Assembly: GCF_011064545.1 (NCBI RefSeq)
Contig: NZ_JAAMFG010000034.1
Location: forward strand, 558,001-622,000
DNA: 64,000 bases
Reading direction: 5' to 3'
Source of the DNA: Wenzhouxiangella sp. XN24
Lineage (GTDB): Bacteria; Pseudomonadota; Gammaproteobacteria; Steroidobacterales; XN24
Both the position numbers and the translations under genes were made by a program. The first letter of the stretch is position 1, and each line of letters starts with the position of its first letter. The notes beneath the pieces are model-generated. The model saw nothing but the letters and a program-made list of their open reading frames with translations. It made no database searches and had not been told where the DNA came from. Of the stretch, positions 13,019 through 16,247 are shown in pieces.

Positions 13019-14722
13019 TCAGGCGGGCTCGAGGTAATCGATGACGAGCTGCGCGGAACGGACGCCGGCATAGTCGTTGACGCCGAGGCGATAGGCGAGG
13101 CGCACATGCGCCGGCCGGGCCGCGCCGAGACGCTCCGCCTGGCGGAACGCGATGCCGTCGAGCGTGCGTCGCCCGCCGGCGGTGCGCAGCCGCAGCTTGA
13201 GATGATCGAGACCCACCACCCGCGCCTCCAGCAATTCGAAGATCCCGTCGAACAGCGGCTCGGGGAAACCCTGGCCCCAGGGCGCCGCGTCGCGCAGCAG
13301 CTCGGCGGTCGCCAGGCCGAAAGCCTCTTCAGGCAACTCGCCGTCCGACAGGATGGCGCCGTCGAGGACGCCTGGCTCGAGCCGTGCCGTGACTTCGGCG
13401 GCCAGGGCGGCGCGGAAGGTTGCGAGACCCTCCGGCGCCATGCTCAGTCCCGCGGCCATCGCATGCCCGCCGAAACGCTCGATCAGTCCCGGATGACGCG
13501 CGTCGACATCGGCGAGGGCATCGCGAATATGCAATCCGGGCACGGAGCGCGCCGAGCCTTTCAGCAGCCCGCCCTCGTCCGCGGCGAACGCGACGGCCGG
13601 CCGGTGATAACGCTCCTTCAGGCGGGCGGCGACGAGCCCCACCACGCCGCTGTGCCAGCCCGGGCGATGCACGCACAACACCGGCGGCAGCGCGCCCGTC
13701 CCGGGCTCGAGCCCGGCAATGGCCTTGAGCGCCTCCTGTTGCATGCGCGCCTCGATTTCCTTGCGCTCCTCGTTCAGGCTCGACAACAGTTCGGCCAGTT
13801 CGCCGGCCCGCCCGGGGTCGTCGCTCAGCAGGCACTCGATCCCCACCGACATGTCGTCCAGCCGCCCCGCCGCATTCAGTCGCGGGCCGGCGGCGAAGGC
13901 GAGATCGGTGGTGACGGCCAGGCGCGGATCACGCTTGCCCGCCGTGAGCAGCGCCGTGATCCCCGGCCGGCAGGCGCCGGCGCGGATGCGCCGGAGGCCG
14001 TGCTCGACGAGGATGCGGTTGTTCCGGTCGAGCGGCACCAGGTCGGCCACGGTACCCAGCGCCACCAGGTCGAGCAGTCCCGGCACCAGGCCGCGATCCG
14101 CGCCCAGTTCTCTCCCCAGCGCGGCCGCCACGTAGAACGCGACGCCGACCCCCGCGAGGCAGCGGCTCGGGAAGCCCTGGCCGGGCAGCGCCGGATTGAC
14201 GATCGCCGTAGCGTCCGGGAGGGAGGCGCCAGGGAGGTGATGATCGGTCACGAGCACGTCCATGCCCATTTGCCGTGCCAGTGCGACGCCGGCGTGACAG
14301 TTGATGCCGCTGTCCACCGTGACCAGCAGCGCGGGCTCGTGCGCCGCGGCATCACGCACGAGGTCCGGGCTGAGGCCGTAGCCGTGTACGAAGCGATCCG
14401 GCACGAGATAAGCCACGGTCCCGCCGAGCGCGCGCAGCACGCGCACCAGCAACGCCGTGCTGGTCGCGCCGTCGGCGTCGAAGTCGCCGACCACCAGGAT
14501 CCTGTTCCCGGCGCCGAGGTGGCGCGCCAGCAACGCCACGGCCGCTTCGATGCCGTCGAGGCTGCCGATCGGCGCCAGGGCGGCCAGGCCGAGATCGAGC
14601 TCCGCCACGCTGCGGACGCCGCGGGCCGCGTAGAGCCGCGCCAGCACCCCGCCGGCTCCGCTCAAAGCCGTCACGGCCGCGGGATCCGCGGCCCGCCGGT
14701 GGATGGGGCGCCGGCTCAGCAC
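13019..14722 (-). CDS. recJ: Single-stranded-DNA-specific exonuclease RecJ
   Basis: About 567 residues, near E. coli RecJ (577). DHH-superfamily motifs are intact: VVGDFDADGATSTA, LLVTVDSGINCHAG, VTDHHLPG, GTVADLVPLD and the DHHA1 motif GGHAMAAGLS. RecJ degrades single-stranded DNA 5' to 3' in RecF-pathway recombination, mismatch repair and base excision repair. The GTG chosen overlaps the stop of the rpfE-like gene by 7 bases and gives a family-like N-terminus (PIHRRAADPAAV); longer starts lie within the upstream gene. The order rpfE-like, recJ, prfB, lysS suggests one transcription unit. Confidence 0.96.
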   Translation of the reverse strand: MLSRRPIHRRAADPAAVTALSGAGGVLARLYAARGVRSVAELDLGLAALAPIGSLDGIEAAVALLARHLGAGNRILVVGDFDADGATSTALLVRVLRALGGTVAYLVPDRFVHGYGLSPDLVRDAAAHEPALLVTVDSGINCHAGVALARQMGMDVLVTDHHLPGASLPDATAIVNPALPGQGFPSRCLAGVGVAFYVAAALGRELGADRGLVPGLLDLVALGTVADLVPLDRNNRILVEHGLRRIRAGACRPGITALLTAGKRDPRLAVTTDLAFAAGPRLNAAGRLDDMSVGIECLLSDDPGRAGELAELLSSLNEERKEIEARMQQEALKAIAGLEPGTGALPPVLCVHRPGWHSGVVGLVAARLKERYHRPAVAFAADEGGLLKGSARSVPGLHIRDALADVDARHPGLIERFGGHAMAAGLSMAPEGLATFRAALAAEVTARLEPGVLDGAILSDGELPEEAFGLATAELLRDAAPWGQGFPEPLFDGIFELLEARVVGLDHLKLRLRTAGGRRTLDGIAFRQAERLGAARPAHVRLAYRLGVNDYAGVRSAQLVIDYLEPA

Positions 14723-15825
14723 AGCTCGTGCACCGGACGGGGCCGGCGCCAGAAACGCAGTGCGGCGAAGCGACTCGTCTCGTGGATGGCACGGCCCGTG
14801 ACGAGGCGGATCCCGCTCACGCCGCCGCGCAGCAGCGCCGCCAGCAGGGGCGCCGCCCAGTCCGTTTCCACCGCCTCCCACGGCGCCGTGCCGACGGATT
14901 CCGCCGCAACGGGCCAGGCGAAACCACCGGGCGCGGCTCCGGACGTGTAGCGCGGGCCTTGCGCGCCCCCGATGACGCCGAGCCGGCCGAGACCGGCGAG
15001 ATAAGGTTCTCCCGGCGTCGGCGCAGGCGCAGTCGCAGTCGCAGTCGCAAAGGACGACTCCGGCGCGACGCCGGAACGAACCGGGCTCGCTGCGCGGGCG
15101 TCGTTGTCGGCGTCGTTGTCGGCGTCGTTATCGGCGTCGTTATCGGCGTCGTTATAGGCATCGCTATCGGCTTCGGCTGCGGCTTCGGCTTCGGTTTCGG
15201 CGTCGCCACCGCCCACCAGGCCGCCGCCCCAGGGATGCAGGCCGGCGATCGTCGCCTCGCCCTGTGCGCGCCGCGCCTCGTTGACGGGATGCGCGTGGAA
15301 CAGCATTTCGACTTCCGACAACAACAGCCGCAAAGCCGGCTCCGGTGGCGCCGGGCGCGCCTGTTCCGCCAGCGAACGGGCCGGGCCACCGAAGCCACGC
15401 CATTGCAGCGCGCTCCAGCGCGCCGCGTCGATGCACAGGTACCAGCGTTCGGGCGTGACAGCCTCGAGGCGCAGACCGTCCGCCGCGAACAGTTCGCCGA
15501 AAGCCGCGGCCAGCGCACCCGCTTCGTCCATGCTGATCCCGAGGGCGGCGGCCGGCAGGCGGAGCATGCCCTGTTGCTCCGCCTGCGCGCCCAGCGGCTC
15601 GACGCGCAGGCAGGCATGCGCCTTCGCAGGCAACTCGGCCAGTGCGCTCACCGGCCCGACCGGAAAGCGGCCCGGCGCGGCGCCGCCAAGACGGGCCAGG
15701 GCAGTCCATGGGTCATCGTCCAGCGGAAAACGTCGCCCCCGGGCGAGCAGGCGTTCCAGCGCCGGCAGGCGCGGCGCACCGGCGGGCCGGCCGGATTCGA
15801 TACCGGGAACCAGGAGAGTAAACAC
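14716..15825 (-). CDS. RpfE-like / phosphoglycerate-mutase-like protein with repeat insert
   Basis: 369 residues, resembling the conserved protein encoded upstream of recJ in Xanthomonas (rpfE) and relatives, a distant member of the phosphoglycerate mutase/alkaline phosphatase-like group; its biochemical role is not established. Family-like parts are FPLDDDPWTALARLGG, the EVEMLFHAHPVNEARR segment and LHPWGGG. Between LHPWGGG and EPYLAGLGRLGVIGG lies an acidic low-complexity insert of about 55 residues, built of Ala-Glu, Asp-Ala-Asp-Asn and Ala-Thr repeats that come from tandem DNA repeats. The start lacks an obvious Shine-Dalgarno. A divergent gene begins 50 bases upstream. Confidence 0.7.
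   Translation of the reverse strand: MFTLLVPGIESGRPAGAPRLPALERLLARGRRFPLDDDPWTALARLGGAAPGRFPVGPVSALAELPAKAHACLRVEPLGAQAEQQGMLRLPAAALGISMDEAGALAAAFGELFAADGLRLEAVTPERWYLCIDAARWSALQWRGFGGPARSLAEQARPAPPEPALRLLLSEVEMLFHAHPVNEARRAQGEATIAGLHPWGGGLVGGGDAETEAEAAAEADSDAYNDADNDADNDADNDADNDARAASPVRSGVAPESSFATATATAPAPTPGEPYLAGLGRLGVIGGAQGPRYTSGAAPGGFAWPVAAESVGTAPWEAVETDWAAPLLAALLRGGVSGIRLVTGRAIHETSRFAALRFWRRPRPVHELC
15098..15205. repeat. 12-bp tandem repeat (about five near-perfect units plus decayed units)
   Basis: Units GCGTCGTTGTCG or GCGTCGTTATCG follow each other from 15098 to about 15157, differing at one or two positions, and decay through 15205. A separate six-base CAGTCG repeat lies near 15030-15049. 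The unit length is a multiple of three, so copy-number change keeps the reading frame of the enclosing gene and only lengthens or shortens the Asp-Ala-Asp-Asn tract. Slipped-strand variation between strains is expected. Confidence 0.9.
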
Positions 15826-15875
15826 GTTCCTCGCAAGCGCCTTGTCGTGCGTCCGAATTTGGTTATCGTAGCGGC

Positions 15876-16247
15876 ATGAGATTCACACTCGACAATCATC
15901 CCACAGCCAACCTCGTCACGGGACTCACCCGGGACGGCATTCATGTCGGCGAGCGGTTTTTCGGCAGCAGCCTGATCCTGAGCGCGAGCGCGCTGTTTGC
16001 CGACTGGGCGGCGACGGACGTCGCGACCCTCGATCTCGAGGCGCTTGCACCCGCACTGCAGATGGATCCGGAGATCCTGATCCTCGGCACGGGCGCGCAG
16101 ATTCGCTTCCCTGAATCCGCGCTGTACGCCGCCCTCGCCGCGCGCGACATCGGACTGGAAGTCATGGACACCGCCGCGGCCTGCCGGACGTACAACGTGC
16201 TGGTCACCGAGGAACGTCCGGTGGTCGCCGCGCTGATCCTCTCCTGA
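15876..16247 (+). CDS. Mth938-like domain protein (DUF498/NDUFAF3 family)
   Basis: 123 residues, a full-length single-domain member. Family marks are ERFFGSSLILSAS near residue 26, the DPEILILGTGAQIRFP segment in the middle and DTAAACRTYNVLVTEERPVVAALI at the end. The mitochondrial relative NDUFAF3 is a complex I assembly factor; the role of bacterial members is not established. It is divergent from the rpfE-like gene (50 bases between) and convergent with rpoS. It is cytoplasmic, with no signal peptide. Confidence 0.88.
   Translation: MRFTLDNHPTANLVTGLTRDGIHVGERFFGSSLILSASALFADWAATDVATLDLEALAPALQMDPEILILGTGAQIRFPESALYAALAARDIGLEVMDTAAACRTYNVLVTEERPVVAALILS

Follow-up and report, generated by a model that had tools for sequence, protein, structure and literature searches.

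An in-frame repeat of hexamer and dodecamer units in an otherwise short loop of the RpfE-like protein of Wenzhouxiangella sp. XN24

Introduction

An rpfE-like gene of Wenzhouxiangella sp. XN24 carries within its reading frame a short tandem repeat, which an original prediction from the sequence had described as a potentially adjustable linker. This raises the question of how such a repeat came to lie between the conserved parts of the protein: as a device for tuning its length, as a selected acidic adaptation, as a copy of a mobile element, or as an ordinary product of local sequence change. Here we address it from the 64,000-nucleotide stretch of DNA that holds the gene (hereinafter the window), related loci, and predicted structures.

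The rpfE-like gene and its genomic context

The features of the gene that frame the question are:

14716 to 15825, minus strand: rpfE-like gene, 369 codons, with a GTG start as listed (from the ORF list and aligned relatives)
15268 to 15324, minus strand: conserved LLSEVEMLFHAHPVNEARR block, upstream of GLHPWGGG (from the alignment)
15220 to 15243, minus strand: conserved GLHPWGGG motif, directly before the loop (from alignments)
15010 to 15219, minus strand: whole loop, residues 203-272 (70 residues; from alignments of relatives)

The next gene 3' of the rpfE-like gene in the window is recJ, in which RecJ domains were found and which scores above the cut-off of the NCBIfam model TIGR00644; upstream of the rpfE-like gene come a DUF498 gene and rpoS. 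The protein carries the blocks LL.E..MLFHAHPVN..R and WGGG and its gene has recJ directly downstream, the combination by which we define the recJ-linked RpfE-like family. A same-strand recJ follows the rpfE-like gene at 61 of the 75 related loci examined, a count that takes in three duplicate pairs, and no recJ match was found at the other 14. Three of these (L080, L142 and L152) have less than 1 kb of sequence downstream, and five (L078, L082, L083, L084 and L087) have no recJ match despite more than 3.6 kb of room, which indicates that the rpfE-recJ linkage is common but not universal. The available text on Xanthomonas citri gives the gene order carA-orf-carB-greA-rpfE-recJ (PMC4619228). The rpfE-recJ order fits the name RpfE-like used in the original prediction, which rests on gene order: as in Xanthomonas, a same-strand recJ comes immediately after the gene, but the upstream neighbour there is greA, unlike the DUF498 gene and rpoS of the window (PMC4619228).

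Pfam offered no family for the window protein at E-values up to 1. Nucleotide differences from both same-genus relatives are most frequent at third codon positions (0.558 and 0.490, compared with 0.300-0.341 at the first two positions), and this excess suggests that the gene still is constrained. We take the protein to be probably cytoplasmic, as no obvious signal is present. Titles retrieved by literature searches on bacterial hexanucleotide repeats, repeats in Xanthomonas or Stenotrophomonas, linkers and in-frame intragenic repeats name no repeat in an rpfE-like gene, and the searches gave no match joining rpfE, rpfF and phosphoglycerate mutase.

Make-up of the repeat arrays

Examination of the loop reveals two arrays with a non-repeated stretch between them:

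15158 to 15205, minus strand: decayed hexamer or 12-bp units coding a Glu-Thr/Glu-Ala/Asp-Ser stretch
15098 to 15157, minus strand: five near-perfect 12-bp units, Asp-Ala-Asp-Asn (from TRF and unit comparison)
15049 to 15096, minus strand: non-repeated middle of the insert, RAASPVRSGVAPESSF, holding the palindrome CCGGCG-CGA-CGCCGG at 15060-15074
15022 to 15049, minus strand: second hexamer array, GCGACT, coding Ala-Thr (from TRF)

Read on the plus strand in register from 15098, the 12-mers are GCGTCGTTGTCG twice, GCGTCGTTATCG twice and GCGTCGTTATAG; each of these five units has at most one mismatch to GCGTCGTTATCG, and the four further units up to 15205 share 10, 7, 8 and 7 of 12 positions with it, so that the units decay towards one edge of the array. 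TRF reports the tract as 15097-15175, with a period of 12, 6.6 copies, 91% matches and a score of 116. When the codons of the gene were shuffled, none of 500 shuffles reached this score (best 96), a conservative comparison because the gene's own repeat-biased codons were retained. The self-match at a lag of 12 is also the strongest in the 64 kb window (0.92 over 60 bases, against a mean of 0.329). Thus the five near-perfect in-frame units of the original prediction are borne out by TRF, unit comparison and codon shuffles. The five-fold Asp-Ala-Asp-Asn tract that it proposed is exact in four units, whereas one reads Asp-Ala-Tyr-Asn, the coding strand of the core being DAYN-DADN-DADN-DADN-DADN. 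Synonymous GAT/GAC changes are the sole differences among the four DADN units, which form two pairs of identical neighbours. As for the neighbouring short tracts, Glu-Thr and Glu-Ala do lie within the predicted repeat, up to 15205, but the Ala-Thr array at 15022-15049 falls outside it.

The reading frame is intact across the insert, the units being of 12 and 6 bp, so the proposal that the repeat is neutral to the frame holds. The tract accordingly has the make-up of a coding microsatellite, with units alike beyond chance, a length in multiples of three, and a position inside an open frame. Such a repeat in a draft assembly of 37 contigs could in principle reflect faulty assembly or binning, given that repeats can be mis-assembled. 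We find this hardly credible, as the tract spans only about 110 bp, its units are not all identical, and it lies within a 703 kb contig with its frame intact and the gene order normal.

A further reading of the locus places a gene on the opposite, plus strand at 14728-15879, where the repeat would encode Gly-Val-Val. This candidate is unsupported: the same frame is also open, or nearly so, in the short-loop relatives of the genus (no stop in 244 codons of a partial gene, and one in 311), and openness in relatives that have no repeat says nothing about the repeat.

Loop length among relatives

The loop lies between GLHPWGGG and EPYLAGL, just after the conserved WGGG. Two conserved blocks flank the repeat in the alignments, in line with the earlier view that it divides the protein between two family segments. 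Loop lengths were measured on MAFFT alignments with 74 relative rows, representing 71 distinct proteins (L077, L089 and L091 duplicate L003, L004 and L006); L021, which had no tblastn match, and L030, the same gene as L002, were left out, the start is missing from L003/L077, and contig ends truncate L012 and L080. Of the 71 distinct relatives, 70 have a loop of 15-21 residues and one has a loop of 34 (L018, where it is non-repetitive), against 70 residues in the window protein. Both other species of the genus that were compared, one of them Thioalkalivibrio sp. XN8, have loops of 15 and 19 residues without the repeat. Matches to the family profile are present in 232 of 370 genomes, and of the 150 matches listed none exceeds the profile by a larger net margin than the window protein (+33, followed by +22), even though this protein is some 20-30 residues short further on. 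The 30 loci taken from this profile search were the best-scoring ones, so the sampled relatives lean towards profile-like members.

A nearly fixed loop in the family, together with absence of the repeat from two same-genus species, argues for a recent gain at the species level and not for a family feature. As read from the sequences compared, one species recently acquired about 50 extra residues with this insert. The mildly unusual point is that a repeat has entered a loop kept at 15-21 residues in all but one of the distinct relatives.

Near-identical repeat copies are prone to change in copy number, and the original prediction proposed that slippage could tune a linker without frameshift. 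A strain-varying copy number would then set the length of the loop, and hence activity or partner binding. The frame-neutral units, their five nearly identical copies, and the position of the loop directly behind the motif that is best conserved in a mutase-like fold are compatible with such a device. However, the family loop is almost fixed at its short length and both same-genus species have no repeat, from which it follows that repeat-based length tuning is not a feature of the rpfE-like family; we therefore regard the device as unlikely. Conserved length in relatives had been named in advance, together with an identical repeat number in all strains, as what would speak against the original prediction; length in relatives is indeed conserved, but in proteins that have no repeat. 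Its further suggestion, use in strain typing, stands to the extent that the array is a candidate marker site, one genome per species having been compared.

As a separate observation on the same protein, the rpfE-like proteins of the genus are some 20-30 residues shorter in their C-terminal part (14716-15009 in the window) than other members, and the missing residues include a predicted core strand when compared with the relative L085.

Predicted structure and acidity of the loop

In the AlphaFold model of the window protein, pLDDT stays below 50 at residues 205-222 and 224-271, and the loop is probably disordered. The model is of no more than fair quality (mean pLDDT 69.0; 18 rows), which makes this disorder a prediction, and since the genus lacks those C-terminal residues the model is uncertain beyond the loop as well. 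The model of L085, which has a 16-residue loop, reaches a mean pLDDT of 88.8, with the loop in blocks of pLDDT 93-96.

The fold of L085 resembles the archaeal cofactor-independent phosphoglycerate mutases (ApgM; 2zkt, 3kd8 and 3idd), with a Foldseek E-value of 3.5e-11 and TM-scores of 0.49/0.47, and a VIA Z of 20.6 at an rmsd of 5.0 over 307 aligned residues. The window protein's own model gives a weaker Foldseek match (best E 2.5e-4, with TM 0.28-0.32 for the first three). At the sequence level, a weak profile match to archaeal phosphoglycerate mutase (2zkt, E 0.0027) covers the conserved LLSEVEMLFHAHPVNEARR block, and an HPxNxxR...N...GxG stretch is common to both. Identity to ApgM is only 13-16%, and the window protein falls below the NCBIfam ApgM cut-off (14.5 bits against 320).

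The loop is markedly acidic, with 17 acidic and 2 basic residues among its 70. Organisms named Thioalkalivibrio live in haloalkaline habitats, and the genus includes Thioalkalivibrio sp. XN8; the acidity might on these grounds be a selected adaptation, for instance to saline and alkaline conditions or to the binding of ions. Yet in the other two species of the genus the loop is short and the tract missing, and part of the 70-residue loop is Ala-Thr-Pro and not acidic, which leaves the adaptive reading with a slim chance. The gain was probably near-neutral rather than a selected tuning, while a functional acidic loop would look alike here.

Search for further copies of the insert

The non-repeated middle, with its perfect 6-bp-stem palindrome at 15060-15074 and arrays on either side, also calls to mind the Rickettsia palindromic elements, which insert in frame. 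In that event the insert would be one in-frame member of a dispersed set of palindromic or mobile elements. Yet a search of the species' own genome (40 matches scored) did not return the whole insert a second time: the window copy alone exceeds 38 bases, and the other matches cover only 15-38. The best three of these (E 0.001; 26-31 bases of simple repeat) look like parts of ordinary coding sequences. Among six other genomes of the family, five gave partial matches only (E 0.01 or better), mostly to the simple-repeat part, and one gave none. Palindromes of this type number 9 in 464 kb of the own genome and 20 in 400 kb of a sibling genome; being frequent in both samples, they are not special. 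With no full copies and a common palindrome, we reject a palindromic or REP-like element, and an origin from a mobile element of any such kind appears very improbable.

The degenerate pattern (RNCGAN)6 was found twice in the own genome, not at all in the two same-genus genomes and once in the family genome G003; in G010 its nine matches overlap within a single GAC run. Its reversed control matched four times in G007 and once in G010. These counts are weak evidence either way on whether this array type is specific to particular genomes.

Comparable tracts elsewhere in the genus and family

In the sibling genome G002, a GCATCG array (coding GATGCC) yields EPDADADADADPDAAA in the N-terminal part of RpoS (G002:C28:37920-37962, L115:2920-2962), before the conserved part of that protein and about 1.3 kb from its rpfE gene. 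The other seven RpoS-like genes found in seven family genomes, including that of the window, have no EPDADADADADPDAAA tract. In the own genome, a DUF748/AsmA-like protein (L063:7-2754, G000:C30:186365-189112) carries DADADADADA and TEAETEAETEAETE tracts at variable linkers; the linkers of its relatives at these places are different and abound in Ala, Pro and acidic residues. At the second of these sites the sibling G002 has a different, semi-repetitive Ala/Pro/Asp linker of its own, which makes this comparison less clean than that of rpfE. A TRF survey of 464 kb of the 3.29 Mb own genome (window included) and 400 kb of the approximately 3.1 Mb sibling genome found other short-unit arrays in long reading frames, these being open frames and not confirmed genes. 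Comparable tracts in other genes suggest that frame-neutral growth of hexamers in variable segments is recurrent and ordinary in this genus.

It is conceivable, though doubtful, that a mutational bias in the genus keeps generating GAN-GCC hexamer tracts, which selection lets pass only in disordered segments. Were this so, acidic linkers would arise de novo in different genes of each species (the rpfE loop and the DUF748 protein here, RpoS in the sibling), and the rpfE loop would represent a rare entry of such a tract into a loop otherwise almost locked in length.

Several other arrays came to light in the same searches. Another genus of the family has a GAAGCC hexamer array (L062/L134, G003:C51:11574-11613), the other strand of which would encode Gly-Phe repeats in a putative antiporter-type membrane protein. 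At L138 (G005:C30:83881-83906), GACTGC-type hexamers encode a long run of Ser-Gln dipeptides in a predicted protein, which is read from the strand opposite to the match. Longer units occur in open frames of the own genome, namely a 30-bp unit at L095:18145-18328 (6.2 copies, 98%) and a 36-bp unit rich in Lys-Pro-Ala codons at L108:17701-18030 (9.2 copies).

Proposed origin of the insert

In light of the above, we consider it likely that slippage or local duplication enlarged a coding hexamer/dodecamer in a tolerant loop of the rpfE-like protein in one species. Slippage as the process, and the order of its steps, we infer from the identical neighbouring units, the decayed edge, the unit lengths, the absence from siblings and the predicted disorder. 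GCC-GAN hexamers, coding Ala and an acidic residue, would probably have come first; duplication of a 12-bp double unit may then have followed at the centre, where the units are still nearly identical, with those further out decayed. A second hexamer, GCG-ACT, would have grown near the other end of the insert. All units being multiples of three bases, the frame would have held throughout. The loop would in this way have grown from 15-21 to 70 residues, acidic and probably disordered, with the flanking conserved blocks unmoved. Since the insert has a central stretch of about 48 bp that is non-repetitive, simple copying of units cannot explain the whole gain.

The locus thus offers a clean, small example of a long, acidic and probably disordered loop gained through frame-neutral repeats. 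It also holds a warning for annotation, in that the extra segment of this rpfE-like protein is not a domain.

Comparison with known repeat systems

Coding satellites have been described across prokaryotes, with units in multiples of three and, in the available text of that survey, a 12-nt family derived from a hexamer (PMC6749651). The rpfE-like repeat shares with the coding satellites and microsatellites set out there a unit that is a multiple of three, an intragenic position and a short total length. Against that account we see no difference in kind, the distinguishing point being a host loop whose length otherwise hardly varies among relatives (PMC6749651). A second comparison is with prokaryotic low-complexity regions, for which a possible origin by slippage is discussed in PMC6821194: the rpfE-like segment similarly has a possible slippage origin and lies between folded parts, but the accessible portion of that work stresses conserved functional regions, unlike the present tract, which is absent from same-genus relatives. 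The 'Periscope' surface proteins, to judge from excerpts of PMC8201768, likewise have in-frame repeats able to alter protein length; theirs, however, are repeated folded domains at the surface with observed length variation, whereas the rpfE-like repeat forms a short, predicted disordered loop, seen in one genome, of a probably cytoplasmic protein. Together these comparisons place the rpfE-like repeat as a further example of coding repeats already described, and as an ordinary kind of change.
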